A stretch of 64,000 nucleotides of DNA from Argopecten irradians (lineage: Eukaryota > Mollusca > Bivalvia > Pectinida > Pectinidae). Below the pieces are notes generated by a model. It was given only the letters and a program-made list of their open reading frames with translations. It did no database searches and was not told the origin of the DNA. Each line of letters opens with the position of its first letter. Positions within the stretch are counted from its first letter, which is position 1. The position numbers and the translations under genes were made by a program. Shown piece by piece: positions 1,802 through 58,028 of this stretch. The stretch spans positions 38,151,338 to 38,215,337 of the forward strand of contig NC_091134.1 of NCBI RefSeq assembly GCF_041381155.1, in the 5' to 3' direction.

Positions 1802-2951
1802 ATCTGACGTATACGTATATATGCTGTATACATGTATAGTTCTAGGCTTACCTTGCGTCACGGCTCGGCGCGCCCGCTCGATGTAAGCGACGAAATGTGT
1901 TAATACAAACGCAGAAACATTGAATATAAACGCAGAAACATCGAATATACACGCAGAAATAAATAAATACTGGAATTACATGCAACAAAGTACATCAAAT
2001 ATTACCAGAATATGATATCAGTCATTTTATGTATATCAAATCAATTCAGCAAACCTGAAAAGCAGATCATTATGTATAACACTTAATCAGCATTTTACAA
2101 TTAAAGGCAACAGCAAAATATCTTTCAAAACGTCTGTAAATAACAATTTTTTATTTATTTTATGGAAAACGATCTTATTTTAATATCGTCAACAATTCAA
2201 ATTTGTGAGAAGAATATACATACATGTAAATGCACATAATCAAACACATGATTTGTTTGACATAGTTAATCCCCGTGTATATACACATATTTTACACATA
2301 ACCTGGACAGTTATTCATTTGTTACCGCTCGTATCGGAACTCTTCCGAAAAAAGGTGCAAAATGCATAGCTCAAATGACGAGACGCGGGAAAGAAAACAA
2401 CAAAAGATAGGAGAATAGGATAATGAGGATATATGTATTTTTAAAGGGGAAAAGAGAATTGTAAACATAATTATTTTACAGATACAATCAGCTGGCGGCT
2501 GTACGTACTGTAAGTCTCGTTTCACAAGGTAAAGTTTACCTGTGTAAGCCGTGTGCTCGGCCGTCACGGCTCGGCGCGCCCGCTCGATGTAAGCGACGAA
2601 ATGTGTTAATATTAGCGCAGAAACAATAATATAAACGCAGAAACACTGAATATAAACGCAGAAACTCTTAATTCTATCGCCGAATCTGTTAATTTCACCG
2701 TCGCATCGGAAAAGTTTGGCGATTCCCAACCTCCGACAATGTAGCAATAAATAGCCGTGCACGTAACGAAGTTGGGTAATTGTGACTGATACCCTCCGTT
2801 ATTCGGCCGTCAGCCGTCATGACCCACGGCGGACAGAAAAATACTTAGTTTTACGGCAGAAATACTTAATTTTATTAATCGAATTGGAATTCTGAGGAAA
2901 AGTCTTAATATAAAGGGTTAATACTGAATAAAAAAGCACATATGCTAATCC

Positions 2952-3006
2952 TGCCGAAACTTGTTAAAAATTAACTATTCTGCCGTTATTCTAACAAGTT
3001 TCGGCA
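2952..3006. repeat. Hairpin in segment C, copy 1
   Basis: The perfect 15-bp arms TGCCGAAACTTGTTA (2952-2966) and their inverse (2992-3006) surround a 25-nt AT-rich loop. Extra pairing continues outward with one mismatch. The same hairpin recurs at 4111-4165. Confidence 0.8.
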
Positions 3007-3452
3007 AGATTAACACATTTTGGGTTACAAATTTGTGAGAAGAATATACATACATGTAATTGCACATAATCAAACACCAGTGTTCCTTAGTGTTAATCCC
3101 CGTGTATATACACATATTTTACAACTTAACCTAGGACAGATATCTTCATTGTTTACCGCTTGTCAGTTATTCATTCTGTTACCAACCCACAGCTAGTATC
3201 GGTACTCTTTCCGAAAAAAGGTTGCAAATTGCATAAGTCATAGTGTACGAATACGCGGAAACGTTAAACTACCTATAGATAGGGAGAATAGGAAAATGAA
3301 GTAATATATGTATTTTTATAAGGGGAAGAAAAGTGATTTGTAATCATATAATGTTTACCAAGTTACAATCGGCTGGCGGCTGTTCGTACTGTAAGTCCCC
3401 TTGTTTAACAAAGGTAAAAGTTTACCTTGAGACAAGCCGTGTGCTCGGCCGA

Positions 3453-4007
3453 GTGGCACGGCACGGGAGGCGTGTGGTGACGGGGACACCGTTGTTTCGC
3501 TGTGGGCACAGTGCAGGGATATCTCGTTGACTGTTTCAGACTCCAAAGCTGCGTTGTTTAGCTCAAGTTTGCTTGTCGTGCTCTGTGCTCACCATGATGG
3601 TCAAGTCAATAGACACATGCAAGAGAGCAGATCAGGTCATGCAGAGTTCTATGAACGAGCATACAGATCTTGGTGGCGATACAACTGCTCATAACTTTTC
3701 ACCGATTGCGCCAGTGAAACGGGGTGTTACTGTATCACAATTCGGAACGCTTAGAGAGAGTTGTAGAGTGTGCTGCATGTCAGAGAGACTCATCTACTTG
3801 CTGGATTCGGCTATCTGCTTGTGCTCCGAGACTATGTATCGGACAGAGAAACACTAACGCTGGATTAGCTCAGAGCATACTTACACGCGCCGGTAAAGCG
3901 AGGTAGTCGGGGAGAGCCCAGTTGCTGCAAGCGCGAGGTAACAGCCACACACCAGACGCTACAACGGAGCAGGTCTCAGAAAAACTTTACGTCTAACTTG
4001 AGACAAT
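3453..4007 (+). other. GC-richer unique segment with a doubtful 94-codon ORF
   Basis: This 555-bp stretch replaces the segment that follows the first B copy and has a higher GC content than its surroundings. An ORF at 3573-3857 (+) would give 94 residues with scattered cysteines. No domain, signal peptide or splice-supported continuation is visible, and the flanks are repeats, so it may be part of an unclassified mobile element. I do not call it a gene. Confidence 0.3.
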
Positions 4008-4110
4008 TACGGCAGAAAGTACTTAATCCTTTATTAATCGAATTGGAATTCTGAGGAAAAGACTTAATATAAAGGGTTAATACTGAATAAAAAAGCACAT
4101 ATGCTAATCC

Positions 4111-4165
4111 TGCCGAAACTTGTTAAAAATTAAGTATTCTGCCGTTATTCTAACAAGTTTCGGCA
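4111..4165. repeat. Hairpin in segment C, copy 2
   Basis: The same 15-bp perfect stem as at 2952-3006, with arms at 4111-4125 and 4151-4165. It ends about 25 bp before the first degenerate satellite monomer, so the compound repeat and the satellite abut. Confidence 0.8.
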
Positions 4166-4189
4166 AGATTAACACCATTTTGGGTTTAC

Positions 4190-7100
4190 CAGTGTATGTA
4201 TAACTATGGCCTGCTCACCTTTAGTTGCCTATCTTTAGATATATATTATTGTTTATACAATGGCCAGCTCACCTTTAGAATAGCCTATCGTTTATTTATT
4301 ATTATTTGGGTAGCTCCAAGGCAATGCTCACTCATTTTGTATAACGCTATCTTTTAGTATATATTATATGTATACCATGGCCTGCTCACCTTTAGAATAA
4401 CCTATCTTTAGTTTATATTATATATGTATACCATGGCCTGCTCACCTTTAGAATAACCTATCTTTAGTATATATTATATGTATACCATGGCCTGCTCACC
4501 TTTAGAATAACCTATCTTTAGTATAGTATATTTATATGTATACCATGGCCCTGCTCACCTTTAGAATAACCTATCTTTAGTATATATTATTTGTATACCA
4601 TGGCCTGCTCACCTTTAGAATAACCTATCCTTTAGTATATATTATATGTATACCATGGCCTGCTCACCTTTTAGAATACCTATCTTTAGTATATATTATA
4701 TGTATACCATGGCCTGCTCACCTTTAGAATAACCTATCTTTAGTATATATTATATGTATACCATGGCCTGCTCACCTTTAGAATAACCTATCTTTTGTAT
4801 ATATTATTTGTATACCATGGCCTGCTCACCTTAGAATAACCTATCTTTAGTATATATTATATGTATACCATGGCCTGCTCACCTTTAGAATAGCCTATCT
4901 TTAGTATATATTATATGTATACCATGACCTGCTCACCTTTAGAATAACCTATCTTTTAGTATATATTATATGTATACCATGGCCAGCTCATCTTTAGAAT
5001 AACCTACCTTTAGTATATATTATATGTATACCATGGCCTACTCACCTTTAGAATAACCTATCTTTAGTATAATATTATATGTATACCATGGCCTGCTCAC
5101 CTTTAGAATAACCTATCTTTAGTATATATTATTTGTATACCGTGGCATGCTCACCTTTAGAATAACCTATCTTTAGTATTATATATATTGTATACCATGG
5201 CCCTGCTCACCTTTAGAATACCTATCTTTAGTATATATTATATGTAATACCATGGCCTGCTCACCTTTAGAATAGCCTATCTTTAGTATATATTATATGT
5301 ATACCATGGCCTGCTCACCTTTAGAATAACCTATCTTTAGTATATATTATATGTATACCATGGCCTGCTCACCTTTAGAATAGCCTATCTTTAGTATATA
5401 TAATATGTATACCATGGCCAGCTCACCTTTAGAATAGCCTATCTTTAGTATATATTTATATGTATACCATGGCCAGCTCACCTTTAGAATAGCCTATCTT
5501 TAGTATATATTATATGTATACCATGGCCTGCTCACCTTTAGAATAGCCTATCTTTAGTATATATTATTTGTATACCATGGCCTGCTCACCTTTAGAATAA
5601 CCTTTCTTTAGTATATATTATATGTATACCATGGCCTGCTCACCTTTAGAATAGCCTTATCTTTAGTATATATTATATGTATACAAATGGCCTGCTCACC
5701 TTTAGAATAACCTATCTTTAGTATATATTATATGTATACCATGGCCAGCTCACCTTTAGAATAACCTATCTTTAGTATATATTATATGTATACCATGGCC
5801 AGCTCACCTTTAGAATAACCTATCTTTAGTATATATATTATATGTATACCATGGCCTGCTCACCTTTAGAATAACCAATCTTTAGTATATATTATTTGTA
5901 TACCATGGCCTGCTCACCTTTAGAATAACCTATCTTTAGTATATATTATAATGTATACCATGGCCTGCTCACCTTTAGAATAACCTATCTTTAGTATATA
6001 TTTATATGTATACCATGGCCTGCTCACCTTTAGAATAACCTATCTTTAGTATATATCATATGTATACCATGGCCTGCTCACCTTTAGAATAATCTATCTT
6101 TAGTATATATTTATATGTATACCATGGCCTGCTCACCTTTAGAATAGCCTATCTTTAGTATATATTATATGTTACCATGGCCTGCTCACCTTTAGAATAG
6201 CCTATCTTTAGTATATATTTATATGTATACCATGGCCTGCTCACCTTTAGAATGACCTATCTTTAGTATATATTATATGTATACCATGGCTGCTCACCTT
6301 TAGAATAACCTATCTTTAGTATATTATATTATATGTATACCATGGGCCTGCTCACCTTTAGAATAACCTATCTTTAGTATATATTATATGTATACCATGG
6401 CCTGCTCACCTTTAGAATAACCTATCGTTAGTATATATTATATGTATACCATGGCCAGCTCACCTTTAGAATAACCTATCTTTAGTATATATTAATTTGT
6501 ATACCATGGCCAGCTCACCTTTAGAATAGCCTATCTTTATTATATATTATATGTATAACCATGGCCTGCTCACCTTTAGAATAACCTATCTTTAGTATAT
6601 TATTATATGTATACCATGGCCTGCTCACCTTTAGAATAACCTATCTTTTGTATATTTTTATTTGTATACCATGGCCTGCTCACCTTTAGAATAACCTATC
6701 TTTAGTATATATTATATGTTATACCATGGCCTGCTCACCTTTAGAATAACCTATCTTTAGTATATATTATATGTATACCATGGCCTGCTCACCTTTAGAA
6801 TAGCCTATCTTTAGTATATATTATATGTATACCATGGCCAGCTCACCTTTAGAATAGCCTATCTTTAGTAATATGTTATATTGTATAACCATGGCCTGCT
6901 CACCTTTAGAATAACCTATCTTTAGTATATATTATATGTATACCATGGCCTGCTCACCTTTAAAATGACCTATCTTTAGTATATATTATATGTATACCAT
7001 GGCCAGCTCACCTTTAGAATAGCCTATCTTTAGTATTATTATTTTATGTATACCATGGCCTGCTCACCTTTAGAATAGCCTATCTTTAGTATATATTATA

Positions 7101-10100
7101 TGTATACCATGGCCAGCTCACCTTTAGAATAACCTATCTTTAGTATATATTATATGTATACCATGGCCTGCTCACCTTTAGAATAACCTATCTTTAGTAT
7201 ATATTATATGTATACCATGGCCTGCTCACCTTTAGAATAGCCTATCTTTAGTATATATAAATATGTATACCATGGCCTGCTCACCTTTAGAATAACCTAT
7301 CTTTAGTATATATTATATTGTATACCATGGCCTGCTCACCTTTAGAATAGCCTATCTTTAGTATATATTATATGTATACCATGGCCTGCTCACCTTTAGA
7401 ATAGCCTATCTTTAGTATATATTATATGTATACCATGGCCTGCTCACCTTTAGAATAGCCTATCTTTAGTATATATTATATGTATACCATGGCCAGCTCA
7501 CCTTTAGAATAGCCTATCTTTAGTATATATTATATGTATACCCATGGCCTGCTCACCTTTAGAATAGCCTATCTTTAGTATATATTATATATGTATACCA
7601 TGGCCTGCTCACCTTTAGAATAACCCTATCTTTTAGTATTATAATTATATGTATACCATGGCCTGCTCACCTTTAGAATAGCCTATCTTTAGTATATATT
7701 ATATGTATACCATGGCCAGCTCACCTTTACAATAACCTATCTTTAGTATATATTATATGTATACCATGGCCTGCTCACCTTTAGAATAACCTATCTTTAG
7801 TATATATTATATGTATACCATGGCCTGCTCACCTTTAGAATGACCTATCTTTAGTAGATATGTATATGTATATATTATATATGTATACCATGGCCTGCTC
7901 ACCTTTAGAATAACCTATCTTTAGTATATATTATATGTATACCATGGCCAGCTCACCTTTAGAATAACCTATCTTTAGTATATATTATTTGTATACCATG
8001 GCCAGCTCACCTTTAGAATAGCCTATCTTTAGTGTATAATATATGTATACCATGGCCTGCTCACCTTTAGAATAACCTATCTTTAGTATATATTATATGT
8101 ATACCATGGCCTGCTCACCTTTAGAATAGCCTATATTTAGTATATATTATATGTATACCATGGCCAGCTCACCTTTAGAATAACCTATCTTTAGTATAAT
8201 ATTATATGTATACCATGGCCTGCTCACCTTTAGAATGACCTATCTTTAGTAGATATTATATGTTATACCATGGCCTGCTCAACTTTAGAATAACCTATCT
8301 TTAGTATATATTATATGTATACCATGGCCTGCTCACCTTTAGAATAACCTATCTTTAGTATATATTATATGTATACCATGGCCTGCTCACCTTTAGAATA
8401 ACCTATCTTTAGTATATATTATATGTATACCATGGCCTGCTCACCTTTAGAATAACCTATCTTTAGTATATATTATATGTATATAACATGGCCTGCTCAC
8501 CTTTAGAATAACCTATCTTTAGTATATATTATATGTATACCATGGCCAGCTCACCTTTAGAATAACCTATCTTTAGTATATATTATTTGTATACCATGGC
8601 CAGCTCACCTTTAGAATAGCCTATCTTTAGATATATATTATATGTATACCATGGCCTGCTCACCTTTAGAATAACCTATCTTTAGTATATATTATATGTA
8701 TACCATGGCTTGCTCACCTTTAGAATAGCCTATCTTTAGTATATATTATATGTATACCATGGCCAGCTCACCTTTAGAATAGCCTATCTTTAGTATATAT
8801 TATATGTATACCATGGCCTGCTCACCTTTAGAATAGCCTATCTTTAGTATATATTATATGTATACCATGGCCAGTTCACCTTTAGAATAGCCTATCTTTA
8901 GTATATATTATATGTATACCATGGCCTGCTCCCCTTTAGAATAGCCTATCTTTTAGTATATATTATATGTATACCATGGCCTGCTCACCTTTAGAATAAC
9001 CTATCTTTAGTATATATTATATGTATACCATGGCCAGCTCACCTTTAGAATAACCTATCTTTAGCATATATTATTTGTATACCATGGCCTGCTCACCTTT
9101 AGAATAACCTATCTTTAGTATATATTATATGTATACCATGGCCTGCTCACCTTTAGAATAACCTATCTTTAGTATATATTATATATGTATACCATGGCCA
9201 GCTCACCTTTAGAATAACCTATCTTTAGTATATATTATTTGTATACCATGGCCAGCTCACCTTTAGAATAGCCTATCTTTAGTGTAAAATATATGTATAC
9301 CATGGCCTGCTCACCTTTAGAATAACCTATCTTTAGTATATATTATATGTATACCATGGCCTGCTCACCTTTAGAATAGCCTATATTTAGTATATATTAT
9401 ATGTATACCATGGCCAGCTCACCTTTAGAATAACCTATCTTTAGTATATATTATATGTATACCATGGCCTGCTCACCTTTAGAATGACCTATCTTTAGTA
9501 GATATTATATGTATACCATGGCCTGCTCAACTTTAGAATAACCTATCTTTAGTATATATTATATGTATACCATGGCCTGCTCACCTTTAGAATAACCTAT
9601 CTTTAGTATATATTATATGTATACCATGGCCAGCTCACCTTTAGAATAACCTATCTTTAGTATATATTATATGTATACCATGGCCTGCTCACCTTTAGAA
9701 TAACCTATCTTTAGTATATATTATATGTATAACATGGCCTGCTCACCTTTAGAATAACCTATCTTTAGTATATATTATATGTATATACCATGGCCAGCTC
9801 ACCTTTAGAATAACCTATCTTTAGTATATATTATTTGTATACCATGGCCAGCTCACCTTTAGAATAGCCTATCTTTAGTATATATTATATGTATACCATG
9901 GCCTGCTCACCTTTAGAATAACCTATCTTTAGTATATATTATATGTATACCATGGCTTGCTCACCTTTAGAATAGCCTATCTTTAGTATATATTATATGT
10001 ATACCATGGCCAGCTCACCTTTAGAATAGCCTATCTTTAGTATATATTATATGTATACCATGGCCTGCTCACCTTTAGAATAGCCTATCTTTAGTATATA

Positions 10101-10565
10101 TTATATGTATACCATGGCCAGTTCACCTTTAGAATAGCCTATCTTTAGTATATATTATATGTATACCATGGCCTGCTCCCCTTTAGAATAGCCTATCTTT
10201 AGTATATATTATATGTATACCATGGCCTGCTCACCTTTAGAATAACCTATCTTTAGTATATATATTATATGTATACCATGGCCAGCTCACCTTTAGAATA
10301 ACCTATCTTTAGCATATATTATTTGTATACCATGGCCTGCTCACCTTTAGAATAACCTATCTTTAGTATATATTATATGTATACCATGGCCTGCTCACCT
10401 TTAGAATAACCTATCTTTAGTATATATTATATGTATACCATGGCCTGCTCACCTTTAGAATAACCTATCTTTAGTATATATTATTTGTATACCATGGCCA
10501 GCTCACCTTTAGAATAACCTTTCTTTAGTATATATTATTTGTATACCATGGCCAGCTCACCTTTA
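4190..10565. repeat. 54-bp satellite array, about 118 monomers
   Basis: The monomer reads roughly ctttagtatatattatatg / tataccatggcctgctcacc / tttagaataacctat (54 bp; for example 5281-5334). Two positions vary and define sub-types: CTGCTC or CAGCTC, and AATAACC or AATAGCC. Single-base indels in the TATA run are frequent. The left edge (4190-4340) is degenerate. The right edge runs into the last coding exon of the ACP6-like gene. Each monomer holds an NcoI-type CCATGG and, on the plus strand, a tiny ATG frame (M-A-C/S-S-P-L-E-stop). On the minus strand each holds AAAG|GTGAGC, which resembles a 5' splice site. Confidence 0.97.
7960..10455. repeat. Higher-order repeat inside the satellite (two units of about 1,247 bp)
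   Basis: Diagnostic monomer variants recur at a constant offset: 'cctatattt' at 8129/9379, 'gctcaactt' near 8277/9525, 'ggcttgctc' at 8707/9954, 'ggccagttc' at 8869/10116, 'tgctcccct' near 8927/10174, and 'ttagcat' at 9061/10309. The offset of 1,247-1,250 bp corresponds to 23 monomers. A weaker half-period near 598 bp (11 monomers) links 7987 with 8585 and 9235 with 9832. This is recent block duplication over an older, more diverged array. Confidence 0.85.
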
Positions 10566-10696
10566 TCTATTTTTTCTAGTATATCTGATTTACAGATGGC
10601 GAAGAACTCCTTGTCTCGTATCATGAACGGTTTCATGGCTTTTCTGAACTGATCTAAGGAGCATAGTGTTGAGTCACATCCTCGCACTTTCTTTGG
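10535..10696 (-). CDS. ACP6: ACP6-like terminal coding exon
   Basis: The acceptor is ttttttcag|CCA and the phase is 0 after MGK of the preceding exon. It encodes PKKVRGCDSTLCSLDQF and continues through an acidic/basic helix to DILEKIDKGELAMVYK and TAA. From 'taaaggtgagc' onward (10566 downward) the sequence is a 54-bp satellite monomer, so the last eight or nine residues and the stop come from satellite-type DNA. Alternatively AAAG|GTGAGC at that point is a splice donor, and the real last exon lies beyond the array. Confidence 0.8.
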   Translation of the reverse strand, partial: PKKVRGCDSTLCSLDQFRKAMKPFMIRDKEFFAICKSDILEKIDKGELAMVYK

Positions 10697-13600
10697 CTGA
10701 AAAAATAAACAAAATATTCTAAATGGATATGATGTTAAATATCTCCACCACCAACATAGCATAAAGCATATTCATCATATAAACAATAATTTGTGTTTAC
10801 TTATGAAAATGTCATATGAAATTATTTTTTTGAGATGTCATTCATCATATCTAATGTAAATCATGAAGCTCAAACTTTTCGTTGTTAAATTGTGATTTTT
10901 TTTAACTGTAGAACAATACTAATTTGCCTGCTCCTGATTTTGAAAGAGAAAAATCAACAGTAAAGCATCTTTAAAACAAAATATTATGTCTATATTTAGT
11001 TTTTGTTCCAAGAATCTAAAATTCACAAGATGGTGAATTATGACCTTTAAATTACACATTTGTTACAAAATTAGTGAAGAAGTGAATGAATGTAGTTGAA
11101 TATCAAAGATAAATGATTAAAATGAAAATATGGGAAATTTTGTTCTTGCACCAAGAAAAACACTGAGGAAATGATTAATATACGTGTACACACATTTTAT
11201 CTACCTCAATGGAAAACATCTCACCTTTCCCATATAGAGTACTTGGATGAATTTTTCTTTGTTTTCATTTTCGTACAGTTCCACCCTAAGGTCTACAGAA
11301 TATGGCGGCCATTGTTCGTCCCATATATCTAGAAGCCCCAGAAGGCCTACTATCGTAGAGTCATGTGTCGCAAACAGGAACAGCTTCTTGGCATCTCTGT
11401 TATCACAACAAAATAAATACATTCCAGGAAAAATATTTAATGACTTCAAAACTTCTTGAAAATACTGTATTACGATAGGGCTTAAAATGATCAGGCTAAT
11501 ATTTCGTGGTTTCCTATACCGATGTATTCATGGAGGTTAAAATTTGCGGTTCACAGATTTCTGTTATTCACTGTAAAGGTATGTCAATGAATTTCTGAAT
11601 ATTTTGCTAAGGTGTTTAGAATTTGCTTAGTTTAATGAACAGCAAATATAGCAGAAAAATAAACCATCCACAAATTTTTAAAATTTTAATTTCAAGAGAA
11701 AATTTGTATTACACATTTACAGGTGGTTGGTTCACTTGTGTCTCAAGAGTGAAATCAAAGTACTGAAAGTACTAAATGGCTCGGTCTCAATGATTGGAGG
11801 ATATATTTCTAAAGTCAACATTTTTTTGGACAATAAGAAACAAAGTTTGCTAGTGTTCCTTCCAGTTTGGACTTTTGAGGATTCCTTGGACACCAAGGTG
11901 TTAAATAAGAAACATATACTAAACTCTTAGGAGCCCATTCTAATATTTCCTATGGTGTTATATGCCAAATGACTTTATAGCATCTTTAACCTTTTCCTTG
12001 TTAATTTGATGTCAATTAAAATATCCATTCTGAATTGCTATTCTCATTAAGTTCCTGGGACCAAAGTATCAGTTAACAAGTATTATTTTGCATCAGAGAC
12101 AGACAAGAGGCATATTTTTCTATGCCAAAATGTCTTAAATATAGAATATGTCAGTCCTCAAGAAGACTTATCAATATAGTCATACCATTTCTGAATAAAC
12201 TGGTCAATTGGTCTACTTTTAACAAGTTTTTGTAATTAGTCTTTTGTAAAACAGCAAGTTGATTGATATATCCAAACATGATTTAAACTAGCTCTGATAA
12301 AATATCTTAAACATCTTACAGCCATTTAAACAAGAGCTGTCGGAGAATAGCAAAGCTCGCCTATTCAGAAGAAGTTGTTGTTCAAGTATTTACTATTTAA
12401 ACATGGAAATATGACAAATTAACAGACTAAAAAAAACTAAAGGGCCCCAAATTGGTTGTATTATCACGTTCAGCATCCATACACATTAGGAAAATAAAAT
12501 CATAAACATTTATGATGACTTAAGCTTAAACAATAGACAAAATAGAAACTTGCTCAAAAACTTTAACGTGAAATATGACAAATTAACAGACTAAAAAAAA
12601 ACCTAAAGGGCCCAAAATTGGTTGTATTATCACGTTCAGCATCCATACACATTAGGAAAATAAAATCAGAAACATTTATGATGACTTAAGCTTAAACAAT
12701 TGACGAAACAGAAGCTTGCTCAAAAACTTTAACGTAAAAGGGGACGCCAACGCTGACGCCGACGCCGACGCCGCCGGCGGGTGACAACAATAGCTCCCCC
12801 TATTCTTCGAATAGGCGAGCTAAAAACGTCTGGTCTATTTTCATGTTAAGTATACATTATGCCAAAAAGTAATCATTCTACATTTTATTCCAATATCAAT
12901 TGGGTATCTTGTTAGCTCGCCATAAACCATGAATTGTTTTATACACTTTTTTAACTTGAGGAAATTACATTTGATGGAAATGATTTTTTCTACAATATTT
13001 GTATTTTCAAATCCCCATACTTCTGATGAGTATAATAAAACTGGCATTACAAGTGACTAAAATATTTTCAGTTTAAAATCAACAGGAAGGGATACATTCC
13101 TTTGTTTCTTAAAAATAGTAGACACTGATTTAATTGTTTGTTCAGCAGTTTTTTCCTTTTCTTTAAAAACGCTACCATTAATGTTAAAAAATATACATAG
13201 ATATGTATACCCCTTCTTATCAAAATAATTCTATATCCCATAACGTAAACTGGTGTTGTTGGGCCAATTTACGTTTTGAGAATATTACAACTTTTATCTT
13301 TCTGATATATTAGATTATAATTTCCATGTAATGCGATAATGTAATGCAATATTATTCAAATCCGTTTAACATTTGTTGTAGAACAGTGTCATCGCCATAT
13401 AAAATGATAAAAGTTTGGGATACATTCAATGTTATCTGTAAATAATTTGTCAATAGTTGTCAGACAATTAACATTCTTTTTCCGCCAGATAAGATTCCAA
13501 GTCATCAAGGTATATTGAAAATAGGAAAGGAGATATAAATAAGGTACCATACTGTGCATGTATATGTTCAATGTAAATTAACAATGTAAGCTGATCTTGC

Positions 13601-16600: not shown

Positions 16601-19600
16601 AATTACTAATCAGTAATCTCTGGTGATTGTTGATAAAATATAACTCAGGATAATTGCTAAACATTTAACCGTTTTCTCCACGTTTGTTGTAGATTGAAAC
16701 AGCTTTTTAAGTGCCGTTCTACGAAAGAATTATGAAAAAGAAATCGGCATTTTTATCGATCTACAAATGAAGTAGTCCAAAAAAATCTCACTTCGAGTTA
16801 TACGAACATTTTATGTGTGATTTTTGTCATTCGGACCAAAAATACTTCTTTAATTACGTAGTTTACTGAATACGTTATATATATTATCAGAACGTCAAGC
16901 TCCTGTAGGCCTACATGTGATGAAAGTGGCTAAAATGTTTTTAGTGACAACCTCTATAGTGCTTTAATATGTATATATAATCTGATAATGTATACATGTG
17001 CTTATAAAATTATCGATATTTATGGATGTGGTAAATATTCATACCTTATTAACTGCCGTAAGTTGGAAGATTACGCCAGCTTGGACATTTAGAAAATGTT
17101 CATCGTCTCTCACGCGCTATGTGATCAGTTTACAAAAGTTTATCCTAAATTTTCTTAGAGTTGTCTTTCTTCCATTGTGGATACACGTACATGTGGCATA
17201 ACGCAGCCGTGATAAACAAATCTCCATTTCGTCCTGAGATTTATTTGCTCCGAACTAATATGATTCAAATTACAAAAATCATTATTGTAAAAATTTTGAT
17301 GTTTGAGGTGAAACATTGATTTCATTTTTACCGTTGCGGGATAATTGTCACTAGTAGGGACAAAACGCGTGGGGCGAAGCGAAGCATTTTCGGGACGAAA
17401 CGTCTTCATGCATTGTTAACAACATTTTCGGGACGGAAAGTCTAGATACATTGTAAACAATTCAAGTGAAAATTTTCCAACCTAAGATCATTTGGATAGT
17501 GTATATGGTAAGGATATGAAAGCAGTTATCTACTTCTCCTATTTCAACATTACAGATACGCTTATTTCAGTAACTTTCATATTCAAAATTTGCTATTTAA
17601 AATTCCCGGTAAAATCAAAGTTGTTGAATACACTGCCGTTAGGAGCGCTAGTATCTGCGAGCAAGTTCTAAGCCAATCATATTGAGGAAATTGACTGAAA
17701 GAGAATTTTGCAACCACGATCACAATGGCGAGGTGATCCTCGCCAAAAAAGGTTCCTTGCAGTTAATCAATTAACGTGATATCACTATATTAATAATATC
17801 ACTTCTGTAAGCAAATTCCGTTTTAAATTTTGTGTGTTGAGAAAGAAATACTCCTTTACCCTACAGGCTTATAGAACCCCTCTCTTATATCATTCAAGTT
17901 TGGATGGAGAAGTTGGGACACTTCCTATGATTTTTGTGTAAATAATAGTTTTTCGCTACCTTTTATTTTCCTCTAGGTCTCGTATATTATCCATCACATA
18001 TGTCATTAGTGGGCCTGTGGATAGTCTTGTTATCAAATCACGCTCCGCTCTACAAAACAGATAAACATTAGAGCTATATGTATGAGGTGTCTTTTAGCTG
18101 AAATGAGTAATCACCAGGCAGAATGTACATGTAGGCATGCCTCATGCTTCCACAAGCATATGTACGTATTCGATATCGAATTAAGCAAATATCAAAGCAT
18201 ACACCATGCAAAATGCAAAGTCATGTATTGTAGCAGAATAATTAGATTGACCTTTGATTACTCTATTTACCTACTAATTACAGTAATTATAAATTGAAGT
18301 TCTTTTCAAGGTTGTGCAAACATGTGATATAGATAGACTTACTTGTGCTGCCCACAAAATGTAGCATACATCATTCTACTAGCCATTAGTTCTATCATGT
18401 CCCAGAGAGGTAGTGCATAGGACGGCACTGGTAATCCATGAGCCTGGTAACAAAGGGAGATAATCAACATCAATTACATAGACAAAAAGCAATAGCATGT
18501 CCCAGAGGTAGGGCATAGGATGGAACTGGTAATCCATAAGCCTGGTAAAAACGGGGAGATAATTATCATCAATTACATAGACAAATGGCACTATCATGTC
18601 CCACAGAGGTAGTGCATAGGATGGCACAGGTAATCCATGAGCCTGGTATCAAGAGGAGATAATTATCATTACATAATTACATAGAATACAGGGCACTATC
18701 ATGTCCCACAGCGGTAGGGAATAGGACGGCACTGGTAATCCATGAGCCTGGTAAAAAGGGAAGATAATTATCATCAATTACATAGAAAATGGCACTATCA
18801 TGTAGGGCATAGGATGGAACTGGTAATCAATGAGCCTGGTAAAAAGGGGAGATAATTATCATCAATAACATGGAAAAATGGCAAAATCATGTCCAAGAGA
18901 GGTAGGGCATAGGATGGCACTGACCATGACTCAAGCCGAATGGCAAGAGGAGACAATGTCTGTCATATTAACCTATTCATACAAAGAAATTGAATGCAAT
19001 TTCCAGAGGATTTGAATTCCATTTGTATAAAACAGGTATTTGTACTGTCTGAGTTTGTATTAAGAGGGTTGGACTGTATTCAAATACCCCTGATCCATAT
19101 CTTACCTTGCGTGCCACTAAATCAATCACGAATACCAACAAAATTTAATCCCACGTAATCTTTGAAATTTACACCTGGAAGAGATAAAATAATATTTCAA
19201 ACTACCAGCCCTATAGCACCAAAATGAAAGGTTTATAAGTGTGCTTCCATGTAAAGTATCAAATAAAATGTCTAGCACATTATCTCTAGTTGCTACGAAA
19301 TTGTGATTATACAAACAACAAATTATATCTTATATATTTTTTTTGGTATATATATATATATCAAAGCATTGTAAGTATACTTGTTGTACCTGAAATTATG
19401 AAAAATGAAAATCATGCTCGAATATCTAATTAATTTCTTTTGCAAATGGAGTTATGGCTTATTTTGTGCAATACTTTATTGAAAGGCTAGTACAAACTTG
19501 ATTCTATTCAGCTTCCAAACATTTTTTTCAATTTTCAAACAACCTGGGCAGTTGTTGTCAAATTAAATGAAAAAATAAATGTTTTTCTTATTATCTGATG

Positions 19601-19894
19601 TTTTTGAAAAATGATCAATAGCTCTATGGTTACTTTGTCAGTCCAAGTTTGGTCCAGTTAGGTGACTCCCCTTCTATTTTTTCCAATATTTAAGCGCCCC
19701 GGGCGATTATTGGGTTAATTACGGTAATAACTCACCAAATGCTTCCTCTAGTTTGTGTCTAGATGGCAGGTATTCAGGTTTGTCGGCGATGTGGAACAGT
19801 ACAGAGTGGTTGTTCTGTTGTAATACATGACAGCGTTGTATATTAGGGAAGAGAACCTCAGTTTTGGTGTCAGCAACATACACTTTCACTGGAG
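10535..19894 (-). CDS. ACP6: Lysophosphatidic acid phosphatase type 6-like gene, 3' part
   Basis: Five minus-strand exons (19736-19894, 19106-19174, 18343-18443, 11225-11396, 10535-10696) match in order the C-terminal half of vertebrate ACP6, a branch-2 histidine phosphatase that converts lysophosphatidic acid to monoacylglycerol, mainly mitochondrial in mammals. The catalytic His-Asp motif is present as THDST, followed by WPPYSVDL and RGCDSTLCSLDQF, which correspond to human WPPFAVDL and RGCPDGLCPLDMF. The exons with the N-terminal RHGxRxP motif were not found; they may lie among the repeats upstream. One exon between 18343 and 11396 is also unlocated, because the reading phases do not meet. 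The 69-nt exon carries one base too many, and the stop codon lies in satellite DNA. The gene may be intact with local assembly errors, or decaying. Confidence 0.85.
10697..11224. other. ACP6-like intron
   Basis: AT-rich intron between the last two exons, with GT/AG ends (gtgaga at the 5' side, ttttttcag at the 3' side, minus strand). Nothing else is recognisable in it. Confidence 0.7.
11225..11396 (-). CDS. ACP6: ACP6-like catalytic exon (HD motif)
   Basis: The exon lies between acceptor gataacag|A and donor AAG|gtgaga and gives 57 full codons after one completing base. It encodes DAKKLFLFATHDSTIVG, a hydrophobic helix, then DEQWPPYSVDLRVELY and FIQVLYMGK. HD of THDST is the second catalytic motif of histidine acid phosphatases; the matching human ACP6 segment reads RKLYLYAAHDVTFIPLL. 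This is the best conserved part of the gene. Confidence 0.9.
11397..12353. other. ACP6-like intron, unique part
   Basis: AT-rich intron sequence without recognisable coding or repeat structure. The expected exon between 18343 and 11396 was sought here and not found. Confidence 0.55.
12354..12821. mobile_element. Inverted-repeat element with internal 160-bp duplication
   Basis: The ends are inverted: AGCTCGCCTATTCAGAAG at 12354 and its near-inverse finishing at 12821 in 'ggcgagct', followed by aaaaa. The right end holds a GC-rich run of 'gacgcc' repeats (about 12745-12780), unlike the rest. The interior is a direct duplication of about 160 bp (about 12410-12568 and 12569-12733). A related, degraded terminus with 'agctcgctactcggagc' starts near 21131. 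It has no ORF. Confidence 0.7.
12841..13775 (-). mobile_element. LINE reverse transcriptase relic
   Basis: Minus-strand fragments run in the order of a non-LTR reverse transcriptase. First comes a finger/palm stretch ending near FLFSIYLDDLESYL (about 13500-13775, in more than one frame). Next is the catalytic box LYGDDTVLQQ (about 13375-13405, a YADD variant). Last are TIKSVSTIFKKQRN, LLYSSEVWGFEN and MVYGELTRYPIDI (12841-13165). The last block is typical of mollusc jockey/CR1-type elements. Frameshifts and stops break it, and no 5' part or endonuclease is seen. Confidence 0.8.
13776..18342. other. Long ACP6-like intron, gene-free
   Basis: Long AT-rich stretch with no accepted exon. It contains the 16-nt palindrome CAGGTAAATTTACCTG at 14718-14733. 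A related cluster of caggta/tacctg motifs lies at about 16349-16403. A perfect small hairpin, tggcgagg-tgat-cctcgcca, lies near 17733-17752. A mildly repeated segment with 'acattttcgggacg' lies at 17384-17450. Confidence 0.5.
18343..18443 (-). CDS. ACP6: ACP6-like exon whose start is tandemly amplified
   Basis: The acceptor is tttgttaccag|GCT (exon start 18443) and the donor CACAA|gtaagt (exon end 18343), 101 nt. It encodes AHGLPVPSYALPLWDMIELM and then ASRMMYATFCGQH, matching the human ACP6 segment [20 protein letters not shown]. The acceptor and the first half of this exon are repeated five more times upstream at 18445-18940. Confidence 0.8.
18384..18940. repeat. Minisatellite of about 100 bp made from a splice acceptor and exon start
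   Basis: Six copies of 'catgtcccagagaggtag' / 'tgcataggatggcactgg' / 'taatccatgagcctggta' plus intronic 'ggagataattatcatcaatt'. The acceptor positions (minus strand) are at 18443, 18541, 18642, 18747 and 18835, with spacings of 98, 101, 105 and 88 bp. A sixth, degraded copy lies near 18885-18940. Each well-kept copy preserves the polypyrimidine tract and the AG before GCTCATGG. Only the most downstream copy continues into a complete exon with a donor. Confidence 0.88.
19106..19174 (-). CDS. ACP6: ACP6-like exon with one extra base
   Basis: The acceptor ctcttccag|GTG and donor GCAAG|gtaaga give 69 nt. After the G left over from the 19736 exon it reads GVNFKDYVGLNFVGIRD and then TGA. If one T of 'gtgattgatttag' (about 19122-19127) is discounted, the frame continues as DLVARK and meets the next exon at AHGLPVP in the correct phase; 68 nt would be needed for that. 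It is a real frameshift or a single-base sequencing or assembly error. Confidence 0.65.
19736..19894 (-). CDS. ACP6: ACP6-like exon, most upstream one found
   Basis: The exon runs from acceptor ctattacag|CT to donor TTTG|gtgagt, 159 nt. It encodes PVKVYVADTKTEVLFPNIQR, CHVLQQNNHSVLF and ADKPEYLPSRHKLEEAFG. The corresponding human ACP6 stretch is [20 protein letters not shown]. No upstream exon was identified between here and 36 kb. Confidence 0.8.
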
Positions 19895-22190
19895 CTGTAA
19901 TAGAACAATTTCAGGGCTGCGGCATACATTGACTATAGCTAGTATGTATTTGCATATAACAGAGTTATCTGCTCTTACAGGTATGTATTGTTTGTTGACG
20001 TAATGTAGCCACAAATTAGGAAACTGTGTTAAATGAAAATTTTCACAAAAACTTCATTTTCCAATGAAAACCGTAAAGTTGTGAAATCATGCGGGTGTAA
20101 CATTTAATGGTTTACTGCTCTGAACTTACATGCAGATGTTTATTTTCGTAAATCACCATTTTAACTTTAAAAACATCATTACACATTACAGGTAAAACCA
20201 TGATTTTTGAAGAAATTACATTGCAAGGCATAACATTTTGCAAATTTAGATAAATGTGCGGAATTAAAAACCTCCACAAACATATGCCATTATACACAGG
20301 GGGCCAACTCAATGAAAATGGATGTTGTCATACATTTTTTGTATTTGGTGGATGGACTGATGAGTATATATGACAGTCATGTGATTTTTTTCATAAAATA
20401 CGAGATTTGAAAAATTATTAAAAAATCGGGATATTTACTATAAAACAGAGAAAGGGACGACAGTCGCCATATTGGAAGTTTTACCCCCACCTCGATTTAA
20501 GTTATTTTTTTCACAATAGTATACCTTTTTTTCTAGAGTCATAGTCATGCATCAGTCCTCCGATATTCCATTATCACACACTTACCATGCAAATCCATAT
20601 ACACTATTAGACCAGTCAATCTAGCCATAAAAATAGCTGAACCTCAAACTAATTGCAACAGAAGCAACTATGCATTTTTCTTACTCCCTGATATGTAGTA
20701 AATGATGTATTAAAATTCCCAAATAATCCCAAAAGGGGAAAATTGAAAAATATCAGCTTTTCTAAGACCTATATAGCCTCGCAGATAAGCACTGTAGATT
20801 AAGGGGGTAGGGTAATAAAATTATTCTTTCTTGGAAAGTATTTATATGTACACAGTATATACTTGCAATATTACAATAAAGATAGATTAAACTTTGTTAT
20901 GATATTTGTTTCTGTAAAAATCATTCTATTATGAAGGTCAAATAAAGGTCAAAACTGACGAATTGGTGAAAAAATGATGAAAAACCAGCAGTGTTTTCAG
21001 ATTTACTCTCTTGTAGGTTTATAATGCATTATATCACTTATACCATTTTCATCTTTGCACAAAGTTAAAATAAATTAATACAAACTACAAAATATAACCA
21101 TGGCAACTATATAATGTCCCATTACATTGTTAGCTCGCTACTCGGAGCTTACGGAATCACTTTGGTGTCAGTGTCGGCGCCGGTGTTAGAAATCCCATGC
21201 TAAGGTTTTGGTTGTGTGTTGTAATATATACTGCTATTCTTAACAACTGACATTGATTTCTACAAAATACTTGGATAAAAATTGTCGTGATAAGTATGGA
21301 CAAGCAATTAAAGAATGAACATGCTGGATTTGGAGAATTTCAAGAGGCCCAATTGGCTGAAGTAGGCAGGTTAAGGTTTTGGTGCAAGTGTTGAAATACT
21401 GTCATATGTCAGAACTGACATTTATTTCTGCAATTTTGGTTTATAATTGTGGTATATGGACAATGACTTAAAGGGGGAAATGCTGGATTTTGATAATTTC
21501 AAAAGGCTTAATGGACCAAAAAGTTAAATTACATAATGACATTGCTATATTTTATACTTTGGCCAAAGGGATTTCTTTGATGAAGGTAGTCTAATACCAA
21601 GGTTGTATCTTTCCCAGCCTTTCACACATGGACTTCGAACATTCTTTGTGTTGGTCATTGGTTATATAATTGACCTCAGTGGCGTGATAACTAAAATCAC
21701 ATAAAAATGAACATCAACTACAGAATATCTATTTATTAATTACCATATTCACCGTAATTAGCGCCCAGGGCACTTACAAATTATAACAAAGATTAAAGGG
21801 GGCGCTTATTAGGTAAACGTAACGAAAATTTAAGTTGTGGACAAAAAACCTCTAACAAAAGTCAGACATATTTTTACTCTTTCCACACTCATGGCACATT
21901 TATCTGTCACAGTAAACATACATATGCCTTCTTTCCTTTGATTACGCATTAGTACGTAATGATTCACATGTGGAAGACTCACAAGTTCATGTAATATGGA
22001 ATACGATGCCTGTAAGCATCACACAGTTGTAAAACATCGTTAAATTCATTGGATGACGGGGGCATTTATATAACTTCAGCATTAAGGGAGTGGGACGACT
22101 GGTTCACCCGTCAGTATAATGTCTTCGGCGGCATGCTTCAGTGATATAGCACTATAAAAAGGCCAAGACATCCACTATACACGAATATAC
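19895..22190. other. Gene-free repeat-rich DNA
   Basis: No exon recognised. It includes a degraded terminus related to the 12354 element (from about 21131, with 'gtgtcggcgccgg'). A short piece of a 'gcgcccaggg ... gcgcttattaggtaa' repeat lies near 21755-21815, with a relative near 19691-19725. The rest is AT-rich. Confidence 0.5.
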
Positions 22191-34690: not shown

Positions 34691-36342
34691 AGTAACGTTA
34701 CTCCAAAAGGGTCAAAACAATTTATTGAAAAAAAATGATGTTAAAAATGCTCGTATACATGATTTAGCGAGGCCCTACTTTCACCACTAGAAAATATCTT
34801 AGACAGGAAATTGGTTGTAAACATAATGCTACCGGTACGTAAAGCAGACTGTATATGTTGTTGGCTAATAACTTCCAGACGCAAAACTTACAGGAGCATT
34901 TTGATGAGCTTGAAGAGGTTATGTAAATATCTATATATTCTTGTATGTCTCAATGGCAATTTCCTATGAGATTCGTGATTTTTATTTTATAACAACACAT
35001 GTATTTGGCGTGCTTTTGATACTAGCATTCCCCTTTGTCTGTATAATAAACGACCCAATCCGATTTATTTATGTTATAAACAAAGTAACCGAATAATTAG
35101 ATAGCAAGTTCCTAATCATTCTCGTATTCATTGTTCTGCAATATTCCTTACCACCACCCCTTTCTCATGTGAACATAATAGTTTTAGTAATTTCTTTTCA
35201 TGTCCCTATGATTATTTTCTGAAAATAAACTGGTTACTCCAAAATGTGTTTTCAATTACACGATCCGATTTTATAATGCTGTGAGTCGCGCGCAACACCC
35301 CAACCCCCACGACTGAAACAGCTGGACATTGTTGCGGGTTATATCTCTCGGCTCTGCTGCAAGCCCATTATAGTTGAAAGATAAAATCGACTGCAACTGA
35401 ATGTAAAAGGATGATGACGGTTATGAACGAAGCTAACGATGGATTATTATTGACAGGCTACCCCATTTACCTTTACTAATATCAACCATTGTTGTGTTAG
35501 GATCTTGTTAGGAGCTTTGACAGTGATTTTCTTTTAATCTTGTAAAGGACAGTATTTTTTTTTTAATCTTACTTTCAAATTGATAATATCAGTCTTATGA
35601 TATTTGAACTCTCCGTGCTATTTTAATTGATCAAATACCAAGCACATGTTGTGGTTTTTACCATTTTTTTTCTTAATTAAGACCTTTTAACTAATTCGCA
35701 TGTCCCTGTAAATTTTAACTCAGAAAAATGCTATCCCGCTACATTGTAAACTGAACTATCACGCCTTACCATATTTAGCTAACTGTCTACGAACACGTTT
35801 GCCTGTTTCAATACACATGCTCATTCAAAGATTTCAAATGTTTAAAGAATTTTAATCTCAAATAGCTGACTGCTTTATCACCGAACTGTCTGTAGCAGTA
35901 TGAGCTCGTATCGGGGTATGTTCATGTTCGGAGTTTTAAGTTTACATGTACATGTATTCGCTAGTATCGCGCTATCTTTACTTAAGTTTACTGACGTGCT
36001 TTTGCACATCCATTCGTATAAAACGTTATCTAAAATAGAATACAGGCACGTGACTCAGAGTCTGTATCACTTCCTTGCATAAATCTCTGATCAGGGACTT
36101 CATGAAAACGCTCCAATTCAATTCATATCACAGACACTTTCCAAATTGTTCCATGACAGGACCATGCAATTACAAATTAGCCCCATTTTGATAATTTAAT
36201 TAAGCATCTTAATGAGGTTACAATGTAAATACCAATTAAGTTTAAGACTTTAAACATAAATAGATAAGAATAAAATGAACAATGAAATTTTTATAGCTAA
36301 CCACAGTACATCAAATCATCTAACATCAACTTTTACCAATAC
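34691..36342. other. Gene-free DNA downstream of the EF-hand exon
   Basis: This is presumably intron of the minus-strand EF-hand gene, but no further EF-hand loop was found in it. A 60-codon ORF at 35900-36082 (+) has no recognisable pattern. Repeats are sparse here compared with the preceding 15 kb. Confidence 0.45.
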
Positions 36343-36514
36343 CTAGCAACGTAATTACCCTGGCTTGTTCCTCTGTTCCTTTAAATCCCGCAGTCTTCAG
36401 GACATCGCAGACCTCCTCAAATGTCAGCGCCCCACTCTTGTCTCTGTCCGCGGCATCGAAGTCGTCTGCCACTCGCGAAAGATGGCGTTGCGTCCAGGTA
36501 TCAAAATCCGCCAT
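36343..36514 (-). CDS. First coding exon of an EF-hand protein
   Basis: The ATG at 36514 sits in a good context (AAGAAAATGGCGG). The exon reads MADFDTWTQRHLSRVADDFD and then a canonical 12-residue calcium loop DRDKSGALTFEE (Asp1, Asp3, Ser5, Gly6, Leu8, Glu12), followed by the exiting helix VCDVLKTAGFKGTEEQAR. Two donors are possible: CAGG|gtaatt (exon end 36359) or CTAG|gtattg (36343). An in-frame ATG at 36580 would add 22 residues but has a weaker context. Later exons were not found; they should lie at lower coordinates among the repeats. EF-hand calcium binding is clear from the loop, but the exact protein is not recognised. Confidence 0.75.
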
Positions 36515-39500
36515 TTTCTTGGTTGGTTTCTTTATGCTGAACTTACATCGTATAGGTGAAATCTGAACGTTCGCCAACATCCGGGTTCTTTGTTGTAATT
36601 ACAGCACGGATGTAAAAAACACACCAGAAAATCACGTTGGCGTTTGACGTCTGTCGAATAGCTTTGGTCCATAGAACAGCCGGTGAATATTACATCCCTG
36701 CTCCTTCCCGTTACGATGAGTGAGACACATAGCGTATACACTATGCTCGTGCTATTTGAAGTGCTGAGTATGTGTTGCTATGTTGGTTAATTTAGAGAGT
36801 TATAAATAAACAGACATGCATACTTATCTGTAGCATCTGGTTCTCATCTTACTTTCCAAACTTCAGTCTTGTTTCATCCTAAGGTTGATATACACATGAT
36901 ACTCAAAATACCGTACCGTCTACTGACAATAACATCCCAATATCTGATAATGTTTATATCCATTACAACCAACGCATTCCAGATCTGATAATCTGTCTCT
37001 ATACTGACAATCACAAATCTATATCCGATAATCTGAGTCATTGATGCCAAGGTCATTCATTATTGTCCTTGTCCTCGAGTCAGGCATCTCATGTATTACC
37101 AATAATTTGTGAGATGTTGGCCTGTTTAATTGATCTACGTGACCTTGCATAACGGGCAAGGTCATTATTTTGGTATATGAGCCTTTCATCCCAATATAAT
37201 CAAGATTGATTGGGATGAAGATACTATTAAGATTGTGTAAGGTTTTAGCTTATTTATCTCTTGCAATCTTTAAAGAAGTTCAAGGTTAATTTAAACTTTG
37301 TACAAAGCATTTTATCACAGGATGCTGAATACCAAGTATGCCCAACATCAGGTATCTTTGACTCTTGGTTATTGGCATATTCGACACACGTGACCTTGGG
37401 TGAACAACTTTTGTAACCATTCATTCGGAATTTCCAGCAAGCTCGGTATGAGGTGCATTGTATCGAGGTTTCATGGTTATCATCAGAAGAACAGATGACC
37501 ATAGTTGAAAATGAAATTGTTTACGGATGATAATGGATAAATAGCGATTACAATAGGTCAACTAAGACTTTGCATTACTGCACCTATAATAGCTACTGAA
37601 AACTCGATAAGAGGAGGAAACAAGCAACGGGTAATTTACCATCGACTATAATTAAATGTAATACTTTATGTGTGTGTAGATATCAGTAATTAGCTAATTA
37701 TTGAATAGTATACCGGTATGTAACCTGGAACTTCAAATAAGTTATTTGAAGATGACGGACTTTTCAATCGCCGTTCAATTTCATAGCTTGTCAAAGATTG
37801 CACACTATTGTTTCTTAAAGGAAAACTACCTCAAAATAGGCGGGAAATGACTAATTTTGCATATTTACATTTTTGAATGGTTACCATGGCAACTAGAGTA
37901 GTAATCATAGAAAACTACCATCTTAAATACACCAGGTATGTACTAAATATTTCAGATACAACAGCTTAATTTCGTAATGTTAGTTGAAAATTTGATGAAT
38001 TTGGGGGGCAATAAGGGCCCAAACCATAGTCCTTTCTAGAAAACAGAAAGAACAGAAAAACAGGGATCTTTTTTTAATTGTCATTAAATTGTGTACATCA
38101 AAGTTTCTTTGGGATTTCTTGTTCCCAGGACTTTTAAATGCAATTAAATCTAAAGAATGTTGCTATACTATTTCATTTCTTTACAGATGAGAAAAAAACA
38201 CAAACACATTTTCTTTAATCGCAAGATGACAAATTTTAATGGTGATTTCAAATCATGAATTTCAAAACTGAAATAGGGAGCAATTAAGCTACAATATCAC
38301 ATATAGCATGCCTTGACACATTGTAATATGTGGTTCAATTACCTAACCTAGAGGTACAACGATTTACAACATTCAGACATGATCTTAACTGCACATTAAG
38401 TCAGTCGTCTTCATTGACTTTAAAATCTACTGAGCTTAATAGCTTGAATTTTTCCATTTATAATTTCAATAAAAAGTTTATTTGGGTATTATATCATGCA
38501 ATATCAATATCAATTTTAAAACTTTTATATGTTCTTTCTCATTAAGTTATTGAATATATAGCATGCTTTTTATTCCCGTCCTTTAGGAGATTTCTAGTGT
38601 TACATATATAAAGGTGATTTTAATATGTGAAGTTTCATACAAGTATAAATCACTTATTTAAACGTCAGTCAGTTAAAATCAGAATATTTGGCATACCATT
38701 ATTAGAAATAAGCCTGTTGAAGCTATCAAACTACCTTCTTTGATCTTTCAAACAAAAACAGCTTGTGAGTAGCTACTAAACAAGACAAAATTTCTTGTAA
38801 CTTAAAATAAAGACGCCACAATTTTCTGTTTTGATTTAAACTGTACAACAATAATGATGGTGGGTGACAACACTTGTTCTCAAAACAGGAACTACAACTG
38901 GTCAAACAGCTCAATAGGTCAACTGACCAAGGTCACTGGGTAATCACTCTGTCCAGCAGGTGGTCATTCCAGTAACGTCCAGTGTCACTCTATCCTTATG
39001 ATACAGACTCACAGAGCCCGGTCAAAGGTAACAAGCTGCACCTCGTACTGTTGAGCTTTGCTCCAAGGATGTAGAATCTTTTCTAACTAATACTTTAGTT
39101 CATAAATACTTGAAGCATCTCTGAATGTTTTAGGTAAAAGATATTTAGAAAAGCATTCTGATGATGGTGGTCCTCAAACATACATCATGGAACTTAGAAT
39201 GGGACTTGAAAATGATTCCTTCTCTTCACTTCTGCTTTACCAGGTAAGCTCTTAATCTCCCATGGTCTGAAATGACATGATTTAGTTTGTTATTTTAAGT
39301 GCAAATCTCCCATGGTTTGAAATGATATAATTTAGTATGCTATTTTAAGAGCAAAATTCTTTTAAAATAAACACATGGGCTTTTTAAAAGGAAATATTAA
39401 AACTATCAGTTACATTTCAAAGGCATCAAATTTTCCTTATCATTACTAAATGTTTAAATACTAAGAAATTCTGTGAGAAAATGAAGATGAAACAATAGAT

Positions 39501-50984: not shown

Positions 50985-51515
50985 CTTTTGGAAGCAGCTC
51001 GCCGTCCAACTTCAACTTTCAGCCAGGTTCTTTAGGAGCAGCTCGCCGTTCAGCTTCAACTTCTAGTCAGGTTCTTTAGGAGCAGATCGCCGTCCGACGT
51101 CAACTTCCAGCCAGGTTCTTTAGGAGCAGATCGCCGTCCGACGTCAACTTCCAGTCAGGTTCTTTAGGAGCAGATTGCCGTCCGACGTCAACTTCCAGCC
51201 AGGTTCTTTAGGAGCTGCTCGTTGTCCAGGTTCACTTTCCATCCATGTAGGATAAGGAGCAGCTCACGATCCAGCTTCAATTTCTAATCAGATTCCTTTG
51301 GGAGCATTTTGCCGTCCACCTTCAACTTCCAACCAGGTTTATCTAGGAGCAGCTCGCCGTCCAGCTTCAACTTCCAATCAGATTCCTTTGGGAGCATTTT
51401 GCCGTCAACCTTCAACTTCCAGCTAGGTTCCTATGGATTCAGTTCGCCGTCCAGCTTCAACATTCAGTTAAATTCTTATATGCAAGCAGCTCACCGTCAA
51501 ACTTCAGCGCTGTGA
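50985..51515 (+). repeat. 44/45-bp minisatellite, about 12 units
   Basis: The unit is 'gttctttaggagcagatcgc' then 'cgtccgacgtcaacttccag'. The first seven or so units are 44 bp apart (for example 51071 and 51115). The last four are 45-46 bp long, and there a frame stays open for 68 codons repeating P-S-S/T-F-N-F-Q. It lies just past the stop of the small plus-strand gene. Confidence 0.85.
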
Positions 51516-57967: not shown

Positions 57968-58028
57968 CACATTCTTGCTTGACCCACCTGGGGATCTTTC
58001 TGATGATATAGTTTCATCGATCCATTAA
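57399..58028 (-). CDS. Large gene, first coding exon with 5' untranslated part
   Basis: The acceptor tattctacag|TTAATGG starts the exon at 58028; donor CTAAG|gtagaa ends it at 57399. The main frame is closed by TAA at the exon start, and ATG 57967 is the first in frame. The open frame between the two would read WIDETISSERSPGGSSKNV, which looks protein-like, so a missed upstream splice or a one-base error remains possible. Confidence 0.75.

Follow-up and report, generated by a model that had tools for sequence, protein, structure and literature searches.

A tandem repeat spanning a probable exon-intron junction of an ACP6-like gene in Argopecten irradians

Introduction

In a window of 64,000 nucleotides from Argopecten irradians (the whole stretch of DNA analysed here, on the contig called C1), an ACP6-like exon runs without interruption into a long tandem array of a 54-bp unit, at a point that also resembles a 5′ splice site. 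Two questions follow. Does the array end the protein or does it fill an intron, and was it brought in from elsewhere or made from the gene itself? The original prediction, made from the letters of the window, allowed that a satellite had been captured as a coding end, or that the repeat had grown from the first bases of an intron and created an array of decoy donors.

Results

The junction and the 54-bp array

The features at the junction are as follows (positions are those of the window).

4195-10565, minus strand: 54-bp minisatellite, 117 units by alignment to the repeated consensus (116.5 copies by TRF)
10555..10564, minus strand: junction AAAG|GTGAGC, putative 5′ splice site of the parental gene
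10535..10560, minus strand: read-through of unit 1 in the open frame, giving GELAMVYK and a TAA stop if unspliced

Read on the minus strand, the exon ends in ...SDILEKID AAA G and is followed by GTGAGCTGG. The open frame at 10535-10771 (minus strand) terminates in ...DILEKIDKGELAMVYK-TAA, with its stop at 10535, and the prediction that DILEKID runs into a repeat unit to give KGELAMVYK and TAA was thus borne out. At the candidate splice site the exon would end at 10561, with the GT at 10560. Each unit comprises TAAAG, which is also how exon 10 ends, and a further 49 nt, with the donor AAAG|GTGAGC inside it. This donor had been expected in every one of about 118 units; most units do carry it, the string AAAGGTGAGC being intact in 108 of the 117 and AGGTGAG in 110. 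In a second array, on contig C13, AAAGGTGAGC is intact in 52 of 53 units.

The array begins 5 nt inside the ACP6-like exon, where TAAAG (10561-10565) forms both the last bases of the exon and the first of the repeat. Towards the exon, resemblance to the unit ends before TAAAG (1/11 positions match). Similarity between the unit and the exon sequence further upstream was not significant (P 0.25 local, 0.33 anchored), and the suggestion that this stretch is a diverged unit was rejected on these values. Where the C13 array ends on its far side, the last unit extends to TACAG with 8/11 nt matching, a feature picked after being seen (chance 0.003), and beyond TACAG 3/12 match. An array of TAAAG plus 49 nt in tandem, with a TAAAG-like sequence at its close, fits slippage or unequal exchange between short direct repeats. 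The array may have begun in this way, with the end of the exon as one of the two direct repeats.

The repeat is confined to two loci

The core monomer pattern AAAGGTGAGCNGGCCATGGTATAC was searched with up to 3 mismatches in the genome (846 Mb, 1508 contigs). A total of 159 matches was found, on one strand only: 107 in the window and 52 in a 60-kb section of C13 (C13:19475001-19535000). The two counts together account for every match, so that the repeat is private to this pair of paralogous loci. Every one of the places listed (100 of the 159) belongs to the window or to C13; among the matches listed by a looser DNA search, 90/90 fall in the window or C13 arrays. The repeat had been called a satellite; it is a gene-private minisatellite and not a genome-wide one, and copies at many places in the genome, as a dispersed satellite or a Helentron-borne repeat would have, were not seen.

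A complete gene on C13

On C13 the array (2.8 kb; 53 units, 52 of them full) stands directly after exon 10, as in the window, and on its other side adjoins sequence with diverged partial relatives (20 other matches at 68-82%). The gene here is complete. The gene model (region 19496700-19511400) has 11 exons, all introns GT-AG, consistent phases and 456 residues. Its best solved match is ACP6 (4job, E=2.5e-67, residues 45-425 against 15-388 of 396), and it matches Pfam PF00328 at 100 bits; full-length similarity and the RHGAR motif place it with ACP6 in branch 2 of the histidine phosphatases. The alignment with 4job covers exons 1-10 at least in part, and exon 11 lies beyond the aligned part.

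Past the far edge of the C13 array the sequence reads TTGATTGTTGTAG|AAATCAAAGAAGAGGAG...GGGATGTGA. The terminal exon candidate found here (exon 11, C13:19496905-19496981) consists of 25 codons and a stop and reads DK-EIKEEEKGEVQTEEIREQSETPAGM-stop. It is compatible with phase 1, the phase in which exon 10 ends. The acceptor candidate, TTGTTGTAG, is found about 0.57 kb past the array, the predicted intron 10 (19500373^19496981) would measure 3391 nt, and an AATAAA starts 142 nt from the start of the candidate's stop codon. A genome search with the 291 nt around exon 11 found C13 and no second match.

Two codon models were applied to this candidate. The first, built from 16 long ORFs of the fetched loci, gave known exons scarcely any signal (0.4 and 0.5 bits). 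Nor did exon 11 stand out in it, as 184 of 4202 comparison candidates in 160.6 kb scored as high and 88 of the 184 had a good pyrimidine tract; this model was set aside as a test. The second was trained on exons 1-7, 9 and 10 of the gene (not 11) together with 7 of 16 histidine-phosphatase matches; the other nine, all on the minus strand, were left out because the slices taken contained stops. Among the phase-1 terminal exons that lie within 9 kb of the donor, exon 11 had the highest score with this model. The comparison DNA, 140.6 kb without the first 9 kb of the left flank and its long ORF, gave 7 of 3554 candidates that scored as high, the cut-offs being the candidate's own values and the model the second tried. 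Three of the seven match the pyrimidine tract, and none also has AATAAA within 400 nt. Two known exons receive low scores from this model (-2.1 and 0.3), making it a moderate test.

A phase-matched terminal exon candidate with an AATAAA beyond the C13 array suggests that the array most likely fills the last intron of the C13 gene. The junction AAAG|GTGAGC is likely to be a 5′ splice site in the complete gene. On moderate evidence, it would be that of exon 10, which would then not be the last exon; its description as the last exon is probably wrong for the C13 gene.

Consequences of reading into the array

In both copies the open frame continues into unit 1 and meets its stop there. The in-frame TAA of unit 1 starts at +23 and the next donor lies at +54, so that in the C13 gene the second donor falls 28 nt past the unit-1 stop. 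Splicing from donor 2 or any later donor would end the protein at KGELAMVYK, with 439 residues. Unit 3 of the C13 array contains an AATAAA 109 nt downstream of the first base of the unit-1 stop. A short C13 isoform ending in the array through premature polyadenylation is therefore possible, and the captured stop stays a candidate. In the window array no AATAAA was found in the first 3.9 kb.

The window holds a partial duplicate

When the eleven C13 exons were compared with the window by BLAST, only exons 5-10 were recovered. For exons 1-4 and 11 neither the window nor the 30 kb on its left side gave a BLAST match (E up to 0.01), and the window copy is without the RHGAR exon. The ACP6-like gene of the original prediction is accordingly present as ACP6 exons but not as a whole gene, and the region 4000-11500, proposed there for the alignment of RNA, is a gene fragment. 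The exons and the sequences around them are:

10561..10696, minus strand: ACP6 exon 10 copy (PKKVRGCDS...SDILEKIDK), 135/136 nt identical to C13
11225..11396, minus strand: ACP6 exon 9 copy, 172/172 nt identical to C13
17960..18049, minus strand: ACP6 exon 8 copy, 90/90 nt identical to C13
18343..18443, minus strand: ACP6 exon 7 copy, 100/101 nt identical to C13
19106..19174, minus strand: ACP6 exon 6 copy, frameshifted against C13 by an insertion of 1 nt
19736..19894, minus strand: ACP6 exon 5 copy, 159/159 nt identical to C13
11755..17744, no strand: 6-kb stretch in intron 8 of the copy, absent from C13 at that place
3700..4194, no strand: sequence adjoining the far array edge, its array-side 188 nt found at at least 39 other places at 95-97% (40 of 245 candidates scored)
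20609..21300, no strand: repeat adjoining the other end of the duplicated piece, with at least 40 further matches at 86-98% (40 of 160 candidates scored)

Outside the array, the match between the window and the C13 gene is made up of 10566-11754 and of pieces from 17745 to 20607, corresponding to C13:19500378-19504538; the remaining matches between the window and C13 are repeats elsewhere. In the aligned blocks exons differ at 2/669 nt and introns at 64/2750. Selection on the C1 copy was considered from the near-identity of the exons and set aside, as exons 1-4 and 11 are missing and exon 6 is frameshifted. For the same reasons we prefer a recent duplication of a divergent allele as the probable source of the C1 copy. 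It is probably a partial duplicate, later than the C13 gene and without ACP6 function. Since it has no exon 11, its array could only supply a stop, if the copy is expressed. For the window copy a captured coding end is thus the only end visible; in the parental gene it is the less likely of the two readings.

The three commonest unit variants are present in both arrays and so probably predate the duplication. The array has 53 units on C13 and 117 in the window, a comparison between two copies only.

Next to the far array edge, at 2198-4186 of the window, a 180-nt segment occurs twice in direct orientation (4007-4186 and 2851-3026, 97%), and the segment at 4007-4186 is multicopy in the genome. 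The same region has a 428-nt alignment (76%), also in direct orientation and occurring twice.

A second array at the start of exon 7

The same gene contains another repeat that crosses an exon boundary:

18392..18922, minus strand: 105-bp minisatellite (5.4 copies by TRF) whose units repeat the intron 6 end and as much as the first 52 nt of exon 7

Its counterpart on C13 lies at 19502150-19503072. Exon-7 starts number seven on C13 and six in the window by BLAST, one of each belonging to the full exon; a strict pattern of acceptor plus exon-7 start gives 7 copies on C13 and 4 on C1. The exon part of the unit aligns with human ACP6, which clearly argues that the exon came first and the repeat later. 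This makes it likely that the 54-bp array arose in the same way. The 105-bp array was dropped as an argument for instability, for seven and six exon-7 starts (BLAST) hardly differ.

Discussion

Origin of the array

We consider it probable that the array is a mirage minisatellite, in which the exon 10/intron 10 junction of ACP6 (54 nt including the donor, of which 5 are exon and 49 intron) was duplicated in tandem and expanded inside the last intron of the gene. On C13, AAAG|GTGAGC would serve as the 5′ splice site and be joined over the 3391-nt intron to a short terminal exon encoding EIKEEEKGEVQTEEIREQSETPAGM and a stop. The first donor would be preferred over those of later units, and the downstream units would act as decoy donors; with the second or a later one in use, unit 1 would stay in the mRNA and the protein would end in KGELAMVYK. 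The partial duplicate on C1 (exons 5-10), flanked by multicopy repeats, would have arisen later, and its array now has 117 units. Of the two origins first proposed, growth from the start of an intron with decoy donors is therefore the one favoured: the unit is private, starts 5 nt inside the exon, and has a phase-1 exon candidate and a poly(A) signal beyond it.

There are points against this explanation. The unit holds only 5 nt of exon, with no significant similarity to the exon further upstream (P 0.25 and 0.33). The donor matches the consensus at 7/9 positions and is no better than five other donors of the gene, which equal it, one more being better. Exon 11 was not singled out by the first codon model (184/4202 as high) and lies outside the part aligned with 4job. 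Human ACP6 is not known to have an intron at the place between exons 10 and 11, and exon 11 would then be lineage-specific.

Alternatively, exon 10 could be terminal after all, the unit having been formed from the last codons, the stop and the start of the 3′ UTR, with unit 1 as the original end of the gene, the remaining units as 3′ UTR and no donor used. In both copies the frame runs on into unit 1 and finds its stop there, which agrees with this, as do the AATAAA available in C13 unit 3, the end of 4job no more than about 8 residues past the last one aligned and, in human ACP6, a last exon which we take to be the homologue of exon 10. The GC content also falls at the unit-1 stop, from 52% in the 21 nt before it to 20% after. 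However, a GC content as high is reached by 10.8% of ordinary 21-mers of the window, and the sharpest GC contrast lies elsewhere than at the stop, so this break was rejected as uninformative about a coding end. With a phase-matched terminal exon candidate and a poly(A) signal beyond the array, and a window array that is without AATAAA for its first 3.9 kb, a terminal exon 10 seems rather unlikely to us. It is distinctly unlikely that both ends are used, with unit 1 as an alternative terminal exon and with decoy donors and AATAAA-bearing units setting the ratio of 456-residue to 439-residue protein. Both signals do exist in the C13 gene. A stop close to a downstream junction (within about 50 nt) escapes decay, and by this rule a message spliced from the second donor, 28 nt past the unit-1 stop, would escape, whereas those from later donors would not. 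Against this, use of either end is predicted from sequence, and splicing is reportedly undisturbed by lancelet mirages (PMC3087553, PMC3902484). We regard as very improbable a length-dependent switch, in which U1 binding along the 52 donors would compete with the first donor and premature polyadenylation and so set the acidic 25-residue tail against KGELAMVYK.

Arrival of the array from elsewhere, as a satellite or mobile element captured as a donor or a coding end, is highly improbable. An array edge within 5 nt of the junction would be consistent with it, and an oyster genome has tandem repeats in mobile Helentrons (PMC7492417). Yet the 159 core-pattern matches are all accounted for by the two paralogous arrays, as are the 90/90 among the matches listed in the looser search, and the C13 array is bordered by exon 10 and by sequence with diverged relatives (20 matches, 68-82%). 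The mirage minisatellite stays our preferred explanation.

Comparison with known systems

The array most likely belongs to a kind already described. Tandem duplications of exon-intron boundaries are known as mirages from lancelet globin genes and Adh3 (PMC3087553; Canestro 2002 is the reference cited for them) and also from lancelet TnC and PGBD5 (PMC3902484), and RT-PCR suggests that regular splicing is undisturbed by them (PMC3087553). As in Adh3, BflGb6/BflGb9, TnC and PGBD5, tandem units span a junction at a 5′ or 3′ boundary: the 54-bp unit does so provided that its junction is spliced, and the 105-bp unit does so with at most 52 nt of exon 7 and the end of intron 6. Many units carry AG/GT signals, as they do here (AAAGGTGAGC in 108/117 on C1 and 52/53 on C13). 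Copy number varies in the lancelet cases; here it differs between the two copies of the 54-bp array and hardly at all between those of the 105-bp array. Unlike the lancelet cases, the arrays here have 53 and 117 units, as against 6 and 3 in BflGb6; a donor array and an acceptor array lie in one gene; only 5 nt of exon enter the 54-bp unit; the host is a mollusc; and splicing here is a prediction. No molluscan mirage was found in the open-licence literature, which is no proof of absence.

A human repeat bears comparison too, in an interferon-induced transcript reportedly IFI6/6-16. That minisatellite likewise offers several 5′ splice sites and, by the title of the paper, provides multiple donors to the transcript (Turri 1995), whereas here the donors past the first are predicted only. 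Internal tandem repeats (minisatellites) also lie at exon-intron boundaries of human duplicated genes (PMC2812944). There, as here, a boundary minisatellite differs in copy number between segmental duplicates, but the units average 30 bp x 4 and some form new introns, and the present array is far longer. The AGGT model of intron gain by tandem duplication (PMC4974935) likewise involves a splice site in the duplication. Unlike in that model, and provided that exon 11 is genuine, the presumed acceptor lies outside the repeat here, about 0.57 kb past the C13 array, so that the two intron ends did not both come from the repeat. Minisatellites also occur in an intron of earthworm metallothionein (among PMC3862624, PMC12783039 and PMC5405514), and the passages on them do not state that they span a junction.

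If the explanation holds, a junction amplified to dozens of near-identical competing donors would provide a natural experiment on 5′ splice site choice by the spliceosome, in a gene that repeats an acceptor as well. The molluscan host would mean that mirage minisatellites are not confined to lancelets. Moreover, gene finders may take such arrays for stop-bearing terminal exons.

Other features of the window

On the minus strand, 36326-36598 holds an open frame of 90 aa whose match to the EF hand is weak and falls below the Pfam cut-off, and 52272-58024 holds long open frames of 734, 545, 209 and 123 aa, with no Pfam match at E 0.001; near the latter lies a 44-bp GC-rich tandem repeat (50985-51506). 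At 39763-41323 a 155-bp tandem repeat (9.6 copies) is followed by an ACGG microsatellite, an arrangement that resembles the architecture of bivalve Pearl/HINE Helentrons (PMC7492417). Together with 42 matches to the tyrosinase domain, this element suggests a bivalve, whereas lancelets have GFPs and few tyrosinases; searches for COX1 and for the GFP family gave no match, the GFP control also being silent. An array similar to the 155-bp repeat is present at C13:19530168-19531400.
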